Position numbers and translations under genes: made by a program | Assembly: GCF_004210375.1 (NCBI RefSeq) | Contig: NC_134830.1 | Coordinates: forward strand, 169,267,874-169,331,873 | Length of the DNA: 64,000 nt | Reading direction: 5' to 3' | Source of the DNA: Tachypleus tridentatus | Taxonomy: Eukaryota; Arthropoda; Merostomata; Xiphosura; Limulidae | Shown: piece after piece, positions 3,001 through 64,000 of the stretch | Numbering within the stretch: the first letter of the stretch is position 1 | Layout: every line of letters starts with the position of its first letter | The notes under the pieces: generated by a model | The model's database searches: none | Seen by the model: the letters and a program-made list of their open reading frames with translations, nothing else | Told to the model about the DNA's origin: nothing

Positions 3001-6000
3001 GAAAATAACAAGACATCACAATGGCAATAACTTGAACAGTTAAAATAATCAAAAACAGTAGTAACCAGAAATAATAATACTATTTAGTCAATAATTTTCA
3101 TCACACTAATCGACTTGCATTTAATTTTGATTAATCAATTATTTCACACTACAAAAACACCCAATTTTGTTTGGGTTATTAAGTTAATGTATTCCAGATA
3201 AATGTCAGCGTGTTTATCCTTAACTCATGTTAGCATAAAAGTTTAACCCAAATACTTTTGTCACTAAGCAACATGACATCGTTTCCAAAATGCATTTGCT
3301 GTTCTCAACCTAAGATCTACAAAAGTAATACTGAGGCATTCGTGAACTCTTTTCTTTAATTAAATACTGCATACAAAGACATAAAATAACAACACGTAAA
3401 AAATAAACTATTTCGTAATTATCACAATTTTTCTGGCTCCTCTACATATGCGAGAAAACCCATTAAAAATTCACCTAGCTTATCAATGTTTTCTCAAGGA
3501 GAAAAAATTAGGATTACAGTATCAATAAAGCAATGCCAACCATCTCATCAAATAAGTAATTTTTCAATACTGCTGTTCTTTCAATTGCACATTCAGTAAA
3601 ATGTATCTTTTATTTAATAGCAAAAAATGGGAAAACAAGTTGACTATTAATTAATAAAATAGGATCTTCTAAAAACAACAAAAAATGATAATAAAAGAGG
3701 TCCTTGGGGGTGAAAAGATTGGGAACCTCTGTATTATAAATTGTTATATTGGGAATAACTTCTTTTCCATGTGCTTTTTCCCTAGCTTGCCTTATTAAAA
3801 ACATGTGCACACACATGGATATAAAATGTCAGGTGTCTAGGTTCTTTCTTCTTTGAACAATGGTGGTCACACACAACAGGCACTCAAAGTGTGTGCACTT
3901 TTCACCATATTGATTGATTTATTTGTAGTATTCATTAAATTGATTACTTTACATTACACTATTTAATGTAACCAATCATAATAAGTGATTGATTATATCA
4001 ATCAATCATCAAGCTATGGAGTTCAACATTGATGTGAAACTTTAATGTATCACCCCAATTCAGAAATGCCTTCAGTTCTATCTTTTGAACTTGAGGTTTT
4101 AAAAACAAAAACTATTTTCATTACAAATTTGATTTTTTTTCAATACCCATCATTATAAATCAATATTTATATACAGGATGGTCCAAACATAACAGTATTC
4201 TAGAAAATGTGCAAAATAAATAACTTCCTATTCTAACAGTTATACTAACAATAGACTGTACACAAAACTGTACACAAATAAAAATGGAATTAGATCAGAA
4301 TAATTTACTTCATTATGAGAATTTATGTTGCATCTATTTCTATACTGACTGTGAAAACATTACCTTTTTATGATGCATCTAAAATCATACATCTAAGTGG
4401 TTCCCATATACACAAGTATGCGAGTGTGAATTCACAGCTGCAAATATGTTTTATATAAAGAAAATACTGAGTATTGTACACTAAAAAACAAATGGAAAAT
4501 GTCAACAGTGTAAATACACGTTGAATTTGCACAATTTATTTCAAAGTAATCATACTCCCACTAATCACGAACTGTCTTTAAAAACATTGCAATGATTGCT
4601 GAACCTGTTCTTGCTAGTTGGTAGTGACCAGCAAGTAGTGTTAAAGCCAAAAACAGGGTGTTAATTCAAAGTGACTGGACCAACAAGGATCAAGCACATC
4701 AAATGACAGCTCTCTTCATACTTTACTTTGGATCTAGAAGCATTTATTATTTGCAAACAAAAACTTTAAAACTATTTAAAATTATTTTTAAATCACTGAA
4801 TTTGTAAAAACAAAGCCATACAAAAAAACTTTGTGGTGAAGATTAGTTAAATGCTTAAATCAATACTTAGATATGTCTACCCAAAACAAACCAACATGTA
4901 AAAAATAATGAATAAGAAATATAAATAGACTACATACTGGCTTGGCAACAAGTTGCTTTATGTCATATTATAGAGCATAAACAGAAAATATGTTGTTCTG
5001 AAAACAGTTTACTATACATCATATAATTGGGTGTGGCAACAAATAATGTATCAATTACATAATGATTTGACATAGAACAGAGAAAGGTTATTACTGATAC
5101 ATACCTGTCAATCATGGTAATTCAAGTTTACAACCAATGAGAAAAAACATATTTTTTAACAAGTACACAAGTATGCTCATACATCATTATTAAACTTTAG
5201 CTATTGACAATTTATATTTAGCAATATAATATGAGTTCATATTTATGAGTTAGAACCTGAAGGGCTTTATTGGGACTACATTTTATCTTGCCCTGACACA
5301 GGTGTCACAGTATCAGGTTACCAGGTAAAGCAATAATTTGATATCAATCTCTGCCACTTTATTAATATTGTTCCAAGGGAAAGGATGATTAACGGGTACA
5401 ATTTTTAATTTCTTTTCACTAAATATTAACTACATAAATGAACTTGCAGTATAAATTATTAATTTGTGACTAGCTTAATCAAATGGTGTACAATTTTATT
5501 TTCATTATCTAAAAAGTCACCAAAACCCCTAATACAACCTTTAAGCAATGTTATGAATGCTTCTCAAAATCTTTAACTTCTAGTAATGGGTCAAATAGTT
5601 GTCAACTACAATAATCTCAAATTCTCAGATCACAACAGCTAACTTTAAATACTCTCCAAATAAGCTATATATCAAATTATAACTGACAAGTATATAAGCC
5701 ATGTATCAAATTACTGAAAATTCAGGACCCATATATCAAATTATAATTGAGAAAGACTATATATTACTTTTAATATTAATAGGTCATCATCATAATTATA
5801 GTGATATTATTAGATAAAACTTAAGACTGCATTGTTTATTTTATCAAATATTTTTTCATCAAACTTTAAGCATGACAAGGTATACAGCATAATGCATTAT
5901 TTGTATACCATTACACTGTTCTTGGCTTCAGTGGTTGAAGTTATAAAAATACATACAAAAAGATAAAACAAGCCTTATAATAATATCCCACTGATTTTAA

Positions 6001-13372: not shown

Positions 13373-13406
13373 GTTTTGACCAAGGCACCATCAGATCAAA
13401 GTCAAG

Positions 13407-16400
13407 ATGAGGACAAGTTTATCTATGTCTGCTCTTAATTTAGAAGAATGGAGACAAGCCGTTCGTTCACCTCCAATGTACCGAATTGGCAATACAACCA
13501 TGCGAATGCAGTTTAATTTTGTTGGAGCTATAGTAATTGTTGGTGTTGCTTTTCTTGTAGTACTGTATACATTTATGCCTTACTCTAAAGATGGATTCCA
13601 CATGACCAATGACTTCTTAAAACATGAAGATCACAAACATAATTCATTAAGTGTGATAGAAAAAAACTATAAACCAAGTCTTTATTATAATACCACTTAT
13701 CCTCTGACTCCTCCAGTTCAAACAGATCATGGACTTCGATTCAGAATAGCAGTTGTGAGTGATTTGGATACAGCATCAAAAGCTGAACAAGAACCATATA
13801 CATGGATAAGTTACATTAAAAAAGGGTTCCTTACAATTGATCTTGCAAAGAAGTCGGTGGAATTAAAATGGGATAAAGAAATCATTGCAGTCAAGTCCAA
13901 GCTTTCACAAGAAGGTCGTGGGATGGAGCTTTCAGAACTTGTCTTCTTTAATGGCAGGTTATTAACAGTAGATGACAGAACAGGAATTATCTTTGAGCTA
14001 ATTAGCAACATAGCTATTCCTTGGGTTATTCTCACAGATGGAGATGGAAAAAATGCTAAAGGTAAACTTTTTTTGGGGGAGGATAAGTATTTAATAAATT
14101 TGTGAGTCTCGGAATTTGTGGAACTAGTGGATTAAAAATTTCTTTTTTGGCTGAAAATGTAAAAAATTAAAGTAAGGATTTCTTTATTTGCATTGAGGGA
14201 TGATAAAGGAAGGCTATATCTGATGATTATGAGATATCTACATTATTAAATTTTGTTTTTTTTTTGTTTTTTACTAATGAAGACAGTAATAGTATTCCAT
14301 GTCTTATATAGTGGATAAACAGATATGAGATCAAACAAGATGACTGGATTAATTCTGGGCTGATTAATAAAAAAAAATTTAGGAAGTTTAAAAACCAATA
14401 TGGCTCCTGAGCCAGATAATATTTCCTTAAGGTTTTGAAAAAGGTTAAAGATTGGACATGTGAGCCACTTATTTTTTGTCACTCTTTGAACAGTGGGCAA
14501 GTACCAGAGGATTGAAAATTAGCTTAAAAACTGGTACTTTTTTTGCCAACTTGTATGGATATTTCAATTTAAGAATTGATACTTTGTCAGTTCTGTAAAC
14601 CTTTTCCTTATAACTAGTACTTTTGTCAGCTTGTACAAACTTGATACTTTTTGTCAGCTTGTGCAACCTTTTACCTTAAAAACTGATACTTTTTGTCAGC
14701 TTGTGCAACCTTTTACCTTAAAAACTGATACTTTTATGTCAGCTTATGCAACCTTTTATCTTAAAAACTGGTACTTTTTGTCAGTTCTGTAAACCTTAAC
14801 CTTAAAAACTGGTACTTTCTTGTCAGTTCTGTAAACTTTTATCTTAAAAACTGATACATTTTTGTATGTTCTGTAAACTTTTTCCTTATAACTAGTACTT
14901 TTGTCAGCTTGTACAAACTTTTAACCTAAAAACTGATACTTTTTGTCTGTTCTGTAAACTTTTAGCTTAAAATAGCACTTTTGTCAGCTTATGTGGACTT
15001 TTTCACTTAAAAATTGGTACCTCTTTTAACAAATAATAATAAACATTAATCTTGTTATGTTATTATTTTAAATAGAGATTAAGGTTGTAAGTTTAATAAA
15101 ACTAAAGTTACTTAATTAGGTTGAAAAGGTCTAAATATTAAAACTTGTTTTTTTGGTCAGAAAATTTAACAGTGAGTTATACTTTAATAACAAATTGTCA
15201 CATTTCTCACTGAAAGTTTTTTGTGAATTTTGGTAAAAAAAAACTACTTTGTGAACCTTATGTGAGTCTTGTGTGAAAACCTGTTGTTAATGGTTCTGAG
15301 CACTTACTTTATAATGCCATTTTTGAAAGATATATGTAATGTTATGAATTTCTTTCCAAAAGTCTAGCTATGGAAACTTTTATTACAGACTACATTCTTA
15401 TAGTAGAAAGGTGCTGTTAGAAAATGAGTGTTACAGTCATTAGTACAGGTTTGCATTTGTTAATTTAAATGGACATCTTGTATGATTAGTTATTTCTGTT
15501 GCCTGTTGTATTAATCTGTAGGTTTCAAATGTGAATGGGCAACAGTAAAAGATGGACACCTTTATGTGGGAGGGCTTGGAAAAGAATGGACATCACCTCA
15601 GGGAGAACTTCTGAACTATAACCCTCAGTGGGTCAAAGTGGTTTCACCAAATGGTGAAGTGCAGCATCAAGATTGGCGGGACAAGTATGTTGCAGTCAGA
15701 AAACAAGCTGGTATTGACTTTCCTGGTAGGTTCATCCAGTTTTGTAATGTACTTTGTGTTATAATAAGCTTTATTGAATATGGTTTAATCATGAAGTTGA
15801 TCTGTATATTGTATTGGTAAATGCAAGATTTTTTATTCCTACATACGTAGCAAACCATGACAGTTTTAGTATTGCTTTTATACAGAGTATAGTAATGCAT
15901 TTGTGTTTTATTTACTTAGTTTTTTTTGTTGCATTACTTAAGTATTAATTACTTGTAAAGTCACTGTAATCCTACAGGATTGATAAAATATTTTGTGAGT
16001 GGAATATTGTAACTGGTACAATGATATATTCAACTCCAGGTATACAATTAGAGGAATGTTGAACCAAATTAGTTTTCTCTTCTCACTAAATTATTGGTGA
16101 ACAACCTTTTATACATCAAAAGCTCTACTCTTTTTTTATATTTCCGTAACACTAATTGGATCAAAATGATTTTACAAGGTTATTTTTTTTATAAATGTAT
16201 CTTGTGTTAGTTTCCTGTAATAAACATGTTAGTTCTACTAAATTTAAAGAACTACATTAAATTGTTAGTGTTAAATGAGTCAGAATAATTTGAAAGTTTA
16301 GGTTTTATTTCACTTGTCTATAAAATACACAACTCTAACTACAAAAAAGTGGTATATGAAACTTTTTGCTACGTTTGGAATAATGATTCAAAGTTTTTTC

Positions 16401-36800: not shown

Positions 36801-38357
36801 CACTGCTGGCCAAAATCTTAAGGCCAATGAACATAAAGAAAAATGTGCATTTTGCATTGTTAGACTCAACCACTTATTTGAGTAGAGCTTTGAAAGATGA
36901 AAGTAAAAATAAAAAAACTTTTTAGCATTTAATAGGGAAAATGTGAACATTATGAAACTAGCCTAAATACTAGCTGGTCAAAAGTTTAAGACCATATTGA
37001 AACAAAGTGTTAATCGGTAAACACGTAACAAAATTTAGTCATTTGTGTTCAAGCACTAGCGTTGTCAACATTTCTCACTGACATCTGTGTTACATTGGGT
37101 AAAAACATGGCAAAGGCTAAAAAGTTGACAGAGTTTGAACGTGGCAGAATTATCAAGCTGCAAAAGCAAGGTCTCTCTCAACTGCCATCGCTGGTGAGAT
37201 TGGGTGTAGTAAAACTGCTGTTGCAAGTTTCTTAAAAGACCCTGAGGAATATGGAATGAGAATTTCAAGTGGTCGGCCCAAAAAATTTCGCCGGCATTGA
37301 GCAAGAGGATTCGACAGGTTGTTCAGCAAGACACCAGCCGATCGTCAAACCAGATTAAGGCCCTTACAGACACAGAATGCAGCTACAGAACAATAAGACG
37401 GCATCTACAAGAGAAAGGCTTTAAAAACCATAAACGTCTTTAAAGGCCACGCCTTCTTCCACACCAAGAAACAACTCAGTTTAACTTTGCTGAGAAGCAC
37501 CAAACACTGCAGAAAAGTGGACGAAGATTTTGTTCTCTGATGAGAAAAAAATTAACCTGGATGGTCCAGATGACTTCCAACATTACTGGCACGATTAGGA
37601 TATCCCACCAGAGACATTTTTTACATGACACAGTGGAGGAGGTTCCATCATAATCTGGGGTGCTTTCTCCCTCCATGGAACAATGGAGCTTCAGGTTATA
37701 CAGGGGTGTCAAACAGCACCTGGCTATATTGGCATGTTGGAGAGAGCTTCCTTATTGATTGATGGCCCTCGCTTGTTTGGAAATGACTGGAGGTTTCAGC
37801 AGGACAACACGCAATCCATAATGCCTGCAGGACAAAGGACTTTTTCATGGCAAATAACATGGTTCTTTTGGACCATCCAGTGTGTTCGCTCGAACTGAAC
37901 CCCATTGAAAATGTTTGGAGGTGGATGGCAAGGGAAGTCTATAGAAATTGACGTCAATTTCAAACAGTGGATGATCTTCGTGAAGCCATCTTCACCATAT
38001 GGAATACAATTCCAGCTAGCCTTCTGCAAACGCTTATATCGACCATGCCAAAGCAAATGTTAGAAGTTATTTGCAGTGACAGCCATGCAACTCACTACTG
38101 AGACCTCTTGTTGGGTATTTCCTACCCTGTTTAGGACTTCTTTTTGGTATGGTGTTAAGCTTTTGACCAGCTAGTATTTAGTCTAATTTCATAGTGTTCA
38201 CATTTTCCATATTAAATGCATAAAAAGGTTTTTATTTTTAATTTCTCTTCTTATTTTCATCTTTTGAAGCTCTACTCAAATAACTGGTTGAGTCTAACAA
38301 CGCAAAATGCATATTTTTTCTTTATGTTCAGTGGCCTTAAGATTTTGGCTAGCAGTG
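36801..38357 (+). mobile_element. Tc1/mariner-type transposon, long inverted repeats, inactive
   Basis: The element starts CACTGCTGGCCAAAATCTTA and ends TTTTGGCTAGCAGTG, with TA on both sides (36799-36800, 38358-38359). The terminal inverted repeats run about 200 bp. The transposase region is about 37107-38102, starting MAKAKKLTEFERGRIIKLQK, followed by pieces that match Tc1-family proteins: [67 protein letters not shown] and GDWRFQQDN-like NDWRFQQDN. Several frame changes and stops show it is dead. A second copy lies on the minus strand at 60.7-62.2 kb. Confidence 0.93.
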
Positions 38358-38359
38358 TA

Positions 38360-38514
38360 TGTTGAAAACAGCTCACTATAAACCATGAGATTATCTTAAA
38401 TTGTTAACACAGTTCCTAAAGAAACAGATTACTGTGGAAGAAATAACAAAATGCAATGGGAAACCATAAAACCAATGTGCATCTCACTACTATCTTTATA
38501 GATACATGTAGTAA
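38360..38514. repeat. 155-bp segment shared with the second Tc1-like copy
   Basis: Directly after the right end and TA of the Tc1-like element. Begins TGTTGAAAACAGCTCACTAT and ends TAGATACATGTAGTAA. The same sequence in reverse, about 97 percent identical, abuts the same transposon end at 60711-60867. Confidence 0.93.
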
Positions 38515-59900: not shown

Positions 59901-62900
59901 ATTAAGTGTTTGATAATCAAATAATCTAAACAAGAAGCGGAACTAGCACGAGGGGTAATGTCTTAGAGTTCCGCGACGCCTTGAGGCCTTAACTGGTATT
60001 ATCTTCTGAAAAAAAGAGGTTCCGATTAGTTCTTTGCCCCGAAGCACCTGAACTGTTTGTTCCGCCACTGGTCCAAACCCATTTGTTTATCTTTATTGTT
60101 TCTTGATTGTTAAATAGCCACAGTTATGATTTACGAACTTTACATACGTAGTTACACGTATTTTGTACATTGTTATGGACGACAGCTCAATACACGAACG
60201 ATAAGAAAGGTAACATTTACAAGAATTGTAAATTTCACTTAAAAACTTTGTGATGTATTGTCGTGAACAATAAATACTCAGAAATGTGAACGTAACAACC
60301 CGATAATGCACAAAAAATGACGTTCGTCTTAAAATTATGTCGTCGTGTATTTTATGGTTTTTTTACCTGATGAAAAGGAAGATTCAAACCCCCCATTTTC
60401 ATACCAAAATCTATCACCGATTCTGGAATTTTGAAACTGTTGAGCAATAATACAGGCAAATGTGGGTCCGACCAACCCCCCAATTACTGGTTTCTCCGCT
60501 AGGCCTGCTATGTAAAGATCGATGTCGTCCACGGTTCTGTAACAAACAAATTATCGTTACACACAAAATAAACAAATATATATATTTTAAATCAAGTGCA
60601 AAAATGTAGAACAGAATTCTAACTTATCACAAAATGTACTGTTGTTATTTGTCACAACAAAGCACATTTACACACACACACACATTTATATACACTGCTG
60701 GCCAAAATCTTACTACATGTATCTATAAAGATAGTAGTGAGATGCACATTGGTTTTATGGTTTCCCATTGCATTTTGTTATTTCTTCCACAGTAATCTGT
60801 TTCTTAAGGAACTGTGTTAACAATTTAAGTAGATAATCTCATGGTTTATAGTGAGCTGTTTTCAACATACACTACTAGCCAAAATCTTAAGGCCACTGAA
60901 CATAAATAAAAAAATATGCATTTTGCATTGTTAGACTCAACCAGTTATTTGAGTAGAGCTCCAAAAGATAAAAATAAGAAGAGAAAATAAAAATAAAAAA
61001 CGTTTTAAGAATTTAATAGGGAAAATGTGAACACTATGAAATTAGCCTAAATACTGGCTGGTCAAAAGTTTAAGACCATACCAAAAAGAAGTCCTAAACA
61101 GGGTAGGAAATGCCCAACAAGTGGTCTCAGTAATGAGTTGCATGGCTGTCACTGCAAATAACATCAAATATTCGCCATCCAACCCCAAAAATTTTCAATA
61201 GTGTTCAGTTCGGGCGACACGCTGGATGGTCCAAAAGAATCACGTTATTCGTCATGAAAAACTCCTTTGTCCTTCGAGCATTGTGGATTGCAGCATTGTC
61301 CTGCTGAAGGATTCAGTCATTTCCACACAAGTGAGGGCCTTCAGTCAATAAGGATGCTCTCTCCAACATGCCAATGTAGCCAGCTGCTGTTTGACGCCCC
61401 TGTATAACCTGAAGCTCCATTGTTCCATGGAAGAAGAAAGCACCCCAGATCATGATGGAACCTTCTCCACTGTGTCATGTGGAAAATGTCTCCGGTGGGA
61501 TATCCTTATTGTGCCAATAACGTTGGAAGCCATCTGGACCATCTAGGTTAAATTGTTTCTCATCAGAGAACAAAATCTTCGTCCACTTTTCTACGTCCCA
61601 TGTTTGGTACTTCTCAACAAAGTTTAACCGAGCTGTTTCGTGGTGTTGAAGGAGGCGTGGCTTTTGAAGACGTTTACGGTTTTCAAAGCCTCTCTCTCGT
61701 AGATGCCGTCTTATTGTTCCTGAGTTGCATTCTGCGTCCGTAAGGGCCTTAATCTAGTTCAGCGATTGGCTGGTGTCTTCCCGGACAACCCGTCGAATCC
61801 TCCTGTTGAACGCCGGTGAAATTTTCTTGGGCCGACCACTTGAAATTCTCGTTCTGTAATCCTCAGGGTCTTTTAAGAAATTTGCAACAGCAGTTTTACT
61901 ACGCCCAATCTCACCAGCGATGGCACGTTGGGAGGTTGACAACGCTTATGCTTGAACATAAATGACTAAATTTCGTTACGTGTTTACCGATTAACGCTTC
62001 GTTTAAGTATGGTCTTAAACTTTTGAGCAGCTAGTATTTAGGCTAATTTCATAGTGTCCACATTTTCCCTATCAAATGCTAAAAAAGTTTTTTATTTTTA
62101 TTTTCCCTTTCCTTATTTTTTATTTTTCGAAGCTCTCCTCAAATAAGTGGTTGAGTCTAACAACGCAAAATGCATATTTTTTCTTTATGTTCATTGGCCT
62201 TAAGATTTTGGCCAGCAGTGTATATATATATATATATATATATTAACCAAAGTTACCAACAGTATATCTGATATGTATGTATATCTGTTCCACTCTATCC
62301 GTTTCCTGATTTATAAGAACCATTATGTGACATCTACTGGTATGCTTTGAAAATTATTCGATTTTAAAAACAACCTTTAAAAAATGTTTTTTTGTTGTTG
62401 TTAAGTTGCCGCGCATAGCTGCTCGAGAGATATTCTGTGATGATAGTCCGTAATTAAACAAGAGATAGCAGACAAGTGGTCAATACTACCTATCGCCAAC
62501 TTTTTACTAACGAATAGTGAGATCAGCCGTAATATTATAATGCTCCCCACGACTGAAATAGCGAGTATGTGTGGCGACGAGTTTTGATTCGGCGACTCGC
62601 AGATTGCAAGTCAAGCGCTCTAATCACCAAACCATTAATAATAATCGAGACACTTTCTATGTCACGTATAGTTTTCTGTTTCATCGTGAATTTAAAAAAA
62701 TACGTCTAACACACCACTTTTCTCTTTTGAACGAGAAACGCATTATTAGTCTTAAATAATGAATTGTATAAGATTATTAACCTATGGTTAACTTACTCGT
62801 ACATTTCCTCGAGTCTTCTGATGACATTATCTTCCATCAGACCTTGAAGATCGCTAAAAGAGTATACGGGCATGAGACTACAGTAGCGCCGCCAATCGGT

Positions 62901-64000
62901 GTAGGATGGAATACCGTGATCTCTGCCTCGTTGAATGTTCACGGCAAATAGATCCATGCCGTACATGTGGTGGTGACGCTGAAAGAGGTGATTACAGAGC
63001 TCTTCTGTGATGTATTCATCCACTTGTTGGGCTTTCTGGTTTAACAGGCCTAGCAGTAACTTATCCATGGATCCATCTTGAAGCATTGATCCAGGGTTAA
63101 AGAATTCGTTTCTTAAAGTTGTAGCTGATAAGTAAAATAGTAAAGAGTAATATACCAACAACGGTTAAATGATAGCTATTATATCCTCCTTCGTTAAGTT
63201 CTCTGAATAAGTGAAAACTAAAATTACTTACCAAACATTCATTGTCTCAATTTCACTTCTCCGGAAAAAGTCACAAAGGACAATATTTTTCTCTTAAAAA
63301 CTTTACTGCTGGTAACTATTTCGTGTCAAACACAGTTCGTTGTATTTTACTCATAAATTGTTATTTTACTAAAAGATACAACTGGCAACATTCTTATCAT
63401 CAGCTAATCTCTCTGTATCCTTATCATCAGTCAGTGTTTATCTAGAATAATAACAACAGTCCTCCATTATCTTATACTGCTATCAATAATTTCATGATGT
63501 TCAGTCCAGCGAAAGTGGAACACGCTGAAATGTAACAAACCTGTTTCGGTATGGTTTATTTCCATCAAAATTGTTCTCAATATAATAATTTTTGTTTGTT
63601 TGTTTGTTTACATTCCCATCAGGAGTAATGTAGCAAAGCTCTACTGTTTACTGGAATATTTACGAAGTTGAATGAGTTGTTTTAAAAATTTGTAACAATA
63701 ATACCAGTCGACAGTAGTCGACTGGTTGTATTTAAGTAATGTGCTACTGAACCTATATTATGAATCATCGAAATCATTATATGTTGAAACTTCTTCACAG
63801 TCTGACTTGAAATGATAAACTGACAAGAAAAAAAAAAGAAGAAGAAAACATTTACATGTATGTGTTGTTGTTTTTATCGTTGTGTTTTCTTCTCAAATTA
63901 TAAAATTTGTAATACAAACGTAAATAGAATACCGGAAGTTACGGAGTTGTGGTCCATGGAGTAGCGGAGAAATCTTCCTGGTACGAGGCTATGGCCAAAT
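56963..64000 (-). CDS. Animal haem peroxidase, C-terminal five exons (partial)
   Basis: Minus-strand coding exons are 63933-64000 (runs off the window), 62797-63124, 60367-60536, 57950-58058 and 56963-57038. They join in phase at GT-AG sites and give about 249 residues ending [18 protein letters not shown] carries the proximal haem histidine motif of the animal (MPO-like) peroxidases. [20 protein letters not shown] holds the Asn-x-x-Arg that contacts that histidine and the haem. [27 protein letters not shown] and GDRFWYEN follow as in arthropod chorion peroxidase, peroxinectin and salivary peroxidase, then [16 protein letters not shown]. The distal His, Gln and Arg lie beyond the right edge, so activity cannot be judged. 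Such enzymes use H2O2 in cuticle or egg hardening and immunity. The introns hold two family A SINEs, part of a third, a nested SINE pair and a Tc1-like copy. I cannot assign an orthologue. Confidence 0.93.
57427..57700 (-). mobile_element. SINE family A copy, minus strand
   Basis: Full-length family A in reverse, with a perfect 12-bp target-site duplication (AGAATAAAGACA) at 57415-57426 and 57701-57712. In the last peroxidase intron, same strand as the gene. Open frames over it are the SINE read through. Confidence 0.93.
58278..58330 (+). mobile_element. SINE family A, 3' tail fragment
   Basis: GCGCAGATAGCTCTCGAGTA then GCTTTGCATGAAATTC and an A/C-rich tail: the last 50 bases only. Confidence 0.75.
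59280..59682 (+). mobile_element. SINE family B copy, split by a family A SINE
   Basis: The front half is 59280-59361 (GTTAAGCTTGCGGATTTATA, ACGCTGGAAATC, GGTTTCGATGC, GGCACAGATAATC). The tail resumes after the family A insert at about 59636-59682 with CATTGTG and a run of AAAC. CATTGTG on both sides of the insert is its short target-site duplication. Confidence 0.75.
59362..59635 (-). mobile_element. SINE family A copy, minus strand, nested in SINE B
   Basis: Full family A copy in reverse, from TTTTAATTTCGCGCAAAG to ACCTGGCCATGCGAGGC, in the third visible peroxidase intron. Confidence 0.9.
60693..62220 (-). mobile_element. Second Tc1-like copy with an extra end and captured flank
   Basis: Whole unit flanked by TA, in a peroxidase intron. 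The transposon proper is 60870-62220, minus strand, 90 percent or so alike to the copy at 36.8 kb. Its transposase region (about 61120-61960) shows [33 protein letters not shown] and [12 protein letters not shown], but about 110 bp around the start codon and about 120 bp near the 3' end of the gene are missing, and stops and frame changes occur. Left of 60870 comes TA, then a 155-bp segment (60711-60867), then a further 20-bp transposon end, CACTGCTGGCCAAAATCTTA, at 60693-60712. Confidence 0.92.
62221..62243. repeat. TA microsatellite
   Basis: A run of about 11 TA units directly at the end of the Tc1-like unit. It supplied, or grew from, the TA target. Confidence 0.9.
62392..62640 (-). mobile_element. 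SINE family A copy, old, minus strand
   Basis: Weakened family A in reverse: GCTGCTCGAGAGATATTCTG, CCAACTTTTTACTAACGAAT, AATATTATAATGCTCCCCAC and GATTGCAAGTCAAGCGCTCT. About 75-80 percent alike to the full copies. Confidence 0.8.
63125..63932. other. Peroxidase intron near the right edge
   Basis: AT-rich intron, nothing recognised. The plus-strand open frame at 63242-63445 lacks a domain. Confidence 0.4.

Follow-up and report, generated by a model that had tools for sequence, protein, structure and literature searches.

In Pack-TYPE transposons, among them Pack-Mariner of rice, host DNA lies between element ends and the whole is flanked by TA. Passages of PMC8903248 set out a model in which two neighbouring insertions are mobilised together with the DNA between them, and propose local hopping for Pack-CACTA elements. 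With regard to repair within cut-and-paste elements, a part of PMC4161770 names abortive gap repair as the source of internal deletions in mariner elements. Excerpts of PMC5104497 describe mouse cells in which recombination entering sequence non-homologous to the second end is followed by microhomology-mediated joining or by added bases. For Sleeping Beauty, a section of PMC7827188 places the first-strand cut three nucleotides inside the element.

In this study, we analysed two Tc1-like copies in a 64,000-nucleotide stretch of the Tachypleus tridentatus genome (NC_134830.1, positions 169,267,874 to 169,331,873), hereafter the window, to which the positions below refer. Copy 2 proper occupies 60870-62220 on the reverse strand, 22 kb from copy 1 and in the opposite orientation, and carries at its 3' end a flank that also adjoins copy 1 (Table). 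The two ends of copy 1 are 85% alike in inverted orientation over about 200 bp, in the manner of Tc1/mariner terminal inverted repeats, and TA is present at all four outer borders as well as at the inner border, as the TA target duplication of these elements requires. The tip that closes the unit is interpreted as what is left of the 3' end that copy 2 originally had, and the inner TA would have been copied along from the copy 1 locus. The arrangement is thus like that of the Pack-TYPE elements described in PMC8903248, with TA-flanked host DNA between element ends, but differs from what those passages describe in that the DNA would have been added, through templated copying, to an element already in place, in an animal genome, and in that the copy 2 unit shows no further movement.

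Table. Features of the two Tc1-like copies and of the copied tract, in window positions.
Feature	Positions	Strand	Basis or remark
Copy 1 (donor), degenerate Tc1-like element	36801-38357	+	inverted ends, bordering TAs, many family matches
Final 116 bp of copy 1, the element portion of the copied tract with the strongest support	38242-38357	+	6/6 non-majority alleles, changepoint profile
TA target site at the 3' end of copy 1	38358-38359		
Donor flank, unique sequence, 152 bp	38360-38511	+	copied to 60713-60867
Distal-junction microhomology, TAA (TTA in reverse complement)	38512-38514	+	from the sequence; assignable to either side
Outer TA of the copy 2 unit	60691-60692		
20-bp element tip	60693-60712	-	canonical tip sequence; a single junction match in the genome search
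Captured flank in copy 2, 155 bp	60713-60867	-	genome search and alignment
Inner TA of copy 2	60868-60869		
Putatively converted 3' end of copy 2, bearing rare alleles of copy 1	60870-60986	-	
Ambiguous zone of copy 2	60987-61174	-	allele cluster 61143-61156 common with copy 1; elsewhere 17/189, about the divergence of unrelated copies
Deletion junction in copy 2	61174-61175	-	125 bp missing (copy 1 coordinates 37928-38052); 2-bp GC microhomology; read from alignments
Copy 2's own body, of non-copy-1 origin	61175-62220	-	111/1020 differences, 3/67 alleles shared
TA at the far end of copy 2	62221-62222		

The family is a large one: the genome search gave 7532 first-look candidates, 40 of which were scored. 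Neither copy holds an open frame of transposase length, the longest open pieces on the element strand being about 90 aa, and it is therefore not likely, judging from the reading frames, that either would produce its own transposase. A piece of copy 2 (61475-61753) matches HTH_Tnp_Tc3_2 with an E value of 5.2e-8 and 33.5 bits against a Pfam cut-off of 31.5, and a piece of copy 1 (37787-37951) matches DDE_3 with an E value of 4e-5 but 24.0 bits, below the cut-off of 28.6; the other two of the four transposase pieces of the copies gave no Pfam match.

The earlier note on this DNA had reported that copy 1 is followed by TA and a short segment, that the same segment adjoins the same end and TA of copy 2, and that it is closed there by a 20-bp element end within a unit bordered by TAs, the other flanks being different; all of this was borne out. 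The donor segment resolves into 152 bp of flank and 3 bp, TAA, that flank and tip have in common. Between the two loci, 151 of 152 flank bases are identical, with one substitution and one 3-base gap. Used as a query in a DNA search of the 2.17-Gb genome (205 contigs), in which repeat counts are lower bounds, the flank returned exactly two matches, both in the window, the second with an E value of 3.6e-70, so that its sharing by the two loci is not due to chance; its derivation from the copy 1 locus, as the earlier note had it, holds. The junction between tip and flank, allowing up to two mismatches, was found once in the genome. Donor sequence past the flank (beyond 38511) returned only itself, and no second tip was seen in the sequence read there. 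The outer flank of site 2 matched itself and, weakly, four places on contig C7 (69-88%). Over 1 kb on each side of both sites, the outer flanks gave only matches of at most 25 bases, with E values of 0.07 or worse. At the distal junction, the TTA overlap is a microhomology of 3 bp; since one of at least 3 bp has a chance of about 5% in a rough, simple model, it is by itself weak evidence.

The perfect 20-bp tip with its TA is continued by the canonical AGG at 3338 places in the genome, which rules out that the flank is a regular internal part of a longer element, and the two genome matches rule out a common independent repeat; these were the two outcomes by which, according to the earlier note, its reading would have been refuted. 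All three AGG positions are non-canonical at two places, a count that covers perfect tips and that position only: the copy 2 unit, and an ordinary full-length element with a small tip change (L085, at C10:72986358). The 59 family loci compared with their flanks are those that best match copies 1 and 2, not a random sample. Seven pairs among them have flank DNA in common that adjoins the element in both members. Six pairs (L040/L041, L045/L055, L053/L058 and the three combinations of L004, L018 and L020) lie in long duplications extending to both sides, and the pair of copies 1 and 2 is the only one with short, one-sided sharing. The abutting arms of the duplication groups are 86-99.7% alike, three of the four groups each lie on a single contig, and the arms beside L004, L018 and L020 match at many offsets, in the manner of tandem repeats.

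The similarity of the two elements is uneven along their length, a feature that the earlier note had missed. The alignment comprised copies 1 and 2 and, from each of 57 other copies, the stretch of 633-1590 bases that matched best (the duplicate L048 having been dropped); some of the 57 sit in long duplications and are therefore not independent. To these were added 20 tail-only copies, picked for likeness to the tail of copy 1. The allele count excludes sites with fewer than 15 other letters or with a gap in copy 2. At 88 sites copy 1 carries a non-majority allele, and copy 2 shares 14 of these, namely, 3/67 in the 5' part (36801-37926) against 11/21 in the 3' block (38053-38357; Fisher p 2.7e-6). 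None of 20000 shuffles of allele order reached the best value of the changepoint statistic. Beyond 38242, copy 2 has all six non-majority alleles of copy 1 (p 4.9e-7), a figure that is optimistic because the split at 38242 was picked from the data; the limit of the 3' block as a whole is set by the deletion of copy 2. At seven sites between 38221 and 38350, copy 2 shares all seven rare alleles of copy 1, against at most two in each of 67 other complete copies. At 38284, the common allele lies in a 25-mer present at 4291 places, and the counterpart with the copy 1 allele is present at 41 (both element ends can match). Two rare tip alleles are found together once elsewhere, at C8:57741 (L084), where the flank is absent, as are at least the copy 1 alleles at 38221, 38265 and 38284.

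Divergence follows the same division. The 5' part differs between copies 1 and 2 at 111/1020 sites, the flank at 1/152, and the last 113 compared element sites and the flank taken together at 6/265 (p 1.8e-6 against the 5' part); the element tail accounts for 5/113 differences. Ranked by likeness to copy 2, with copy 1 itself counted in, copy 1 is 26th of 47 over 36801-37070, 55th of 58 over 37171-37926, 17th of 73 over 38053-38220, and nearest of 70 over 38221-38357. Copy 2 is a mosaic, and its 5' 1.05 kb does not descend from copy 1, as the 111/1020 differences and the 3/67 shared alleles show. With 38060-38357 as the query, the highest-ranking match other than copy 1 itself is copy 2 (93%), closely followed by further copies at 92-93%, so that overall identity alone would have missed the transfer.

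The copied tract, made up of element end, TA and flank, measures about 270-460 bp, its start being blurred and uncertain between 38053 and 38244. The best changepoint falls just before 38072, and the next favoured ones lie just upstream of 38072 and just before 38242-38244, the lead of the first over this last being slight; no indel marks the changeover near 38242. Over 38053-38241, the two copies differ at 17/189 sites, and a cluster of four alleles at 38072-38085 is common to both and, as a combination, absent from 71 other complete copies. There are two readings: a tract beginning near 38242, with the cluster as a patch converted separately, and a tract beginning near 38066 that was blurred by later changes. 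The former is favoured by the flank differing at 1/152 sites against 13/151 in 38091-38241 (Fisher p 7e-4). For copy 2, copying from copy 1 followed by 4% change was compared, by likelihood, with letters drawn from the family. The comparison gave +5.8 nats from 38242 to the end and +9.6 over 38066-38094; the rest was negative on balance, at -314 in all. Of 2548 other ordered pairs, 10 reach 5.8 nats (the five shown are pairs in long duplications), and 10 contain a segment that scores 9.6 or more; the copying score beyond 38242 is modest. The 125-bp internal deletion of copy 2 lies close to the changeover zone.

As to timing, departures from the family majority in the 5' part amount to 67/1020 sites for copy 1 and 50/1020 for copy 2, while the tract differs between them at 6/265, for which reason the copying is likely to be younger than either insertion, provided that the family majority approximates the inserted sequence. 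Given the sharing of 3/67 alleles in the 5' part against 11/21 in the 3' block, copy 2 was most likely already an ordinary, aged element at its site when the tract was copied into it.

We consider it probable that copy 2 was repaired in place, by one-sided homologous copying from copy 1 that was closed by microhomology onto its own tip. Observed are the mosaic with its donor and recipient, the uniqueness of the flank, the 3-bp overlap at the junction, and the lower divergence of the tract; the steps would be as follows. Copy 2 would already have been at its site as an ordinary Tc1-like insertion when a break, presumably double-stranded and of whatever cause, arose in its 3' part. The break end on the body side would have invaded the homologous sequence of copy 1, and synthesis, presumably running outwards, would have extended it through the remaining element, the TA and the 152 bp of unique flank. 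The new strand, once released, would have had no homology with the other break end, and its end would have been joined at TTA to the last 20 bp of copy 2. A break made by transposase at the tip was considered as the trigger; with the Sleeping Beauty cut three nucleotides inside the element, the 20 retained bp are unlike simple excision.

Such a course would resemble non-canonical termination of homologous recombination, with a homologous start, copying beyond homology and a microhomology join to the second break end. On one side, the switch is homologous, the changepoint falling inside common element sequence at a place that is uncertain; on the other, the flank was copied past the homology and the far junction shares TTA. 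It differs from the events studied in cells in being old, in involving two diverged transposon copies, and in being known from its product only. As in the abortive gap repair that parts of PMC4161770 describe for mariner, templated repair within a cut-and-paste element would have been incomplete; the internal deletions treated there differ from the present case, in which the template would be another copy of the element, its flank included.

The same product could be reached in the opposite direction by replication-based template switching, presumably of the type named FoSTeS/MMBIR: a strand from the tip of copy 2 would slip at TTA to the flank of copy 1, copy inward through the element end, and return to copy 2 by homology. 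We give this a small probability. It predicts the same junctions, with microhomology on one side and homology on the other, and more than one switch could account for the separate cluster at 38072-38085; the sequence holds nothing that separates it from break repair, but it has to start from a pairing of only 3 bp, whereas repair starts from long homology.

The earlier note had held that flank and element moved as one unit, like a composite transposon, the transposase having used, or repair having created, an end beyond the flank. A second element end is indeed present, and repair is a likely author of the junction; the movement is what lacks support. On the mosaic pattern we reject transposition of the unit from copy 1, which over 37171-37926 is among the copies least like copy 2, and the comparison of segment and transposon divergence that the note had proposed goes the same way. 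A composite or Pack-TYPE transposon is likewise contradicted by an element body that is not common with copy 1 and by a unit junction that the genome search, also proposed there, found once. Movement could be rescued by supposing that, once the unit had reached site 2 from site 1, conversion from another family copy overwrote the 5' 1 kb of copy 2. In its favour are the element ends and TA on both outer sides and the large size of the family; it would nonetheless need a donor end after 38511 that left no trace, a transposition and more than 1 kb of conversion, and the shared rare alleles cluster on the flank side, all of which makes it very improbable. Just as improbable is a mosaic unit that arose elsewhere in the vicinity of copy 1 and reached site 2 by transposing as a whole: the outer ends and TAs are intact and local hopping has been proposed for Pack-CACTA (in the passages of PMC8903248 noted above), but the junction is found once, no remnant of a formation site was seen, and an extra step is needed. 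A local segmental duplication is ruled out by outer flanks that are unrelated over 1 kb on each side, and segmental duplication or assembly artefact, taken together, has a negligible probability: flank sharing through two-sided duplications does occur among other copies of the family, yet here the sharing is one-sided and of 152 bp, the copies differ by one substitution and one indel, and both loci lie in one 169.7 Mb contig.

In the neighbourhood of copy 2, an animal haem peroxidase piece (PF03098, E 2.4e-35) was detected at 62793-63164 on the reverse strand, and a stretch near 60400-60560, just left of the unit, resembles another haem peroxidase exon, by eye only. Given this exon-like stretch, copy 2 may lie in an intron of a haem peroxidase gene. 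Elsewhere in the window, an apyrase piece (PF06079, E 1.8e-32) lies at 13380-14102 on the forward strand.

Among the titles listed by literature searches on capture, gap repair, filler DNA and ectopic conversion, none describes such an event, which is no proof of absence. The locus is best read as a naturally occurring example of a repair outcome already known, instructive but ordinary. Its donor and recipient, separated by 22 kb, preserve a clear trace of homologous copying that continued beyond a repeat into unique DNA. The locus also serves as a warning that flank sharing next to a transposon end need not mean transposition, and a test of allele sharing along the element can tell transposition from copying. 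That ectopic one-sided repair between neighbouring Tc1-like copies might form a route of host-DNA capture, creating new TA-flanked and potentially mobile units, is a tentative and rather unlikely proposition; if true, host DNA would be captured without the transposition of two neighbouring insertions.
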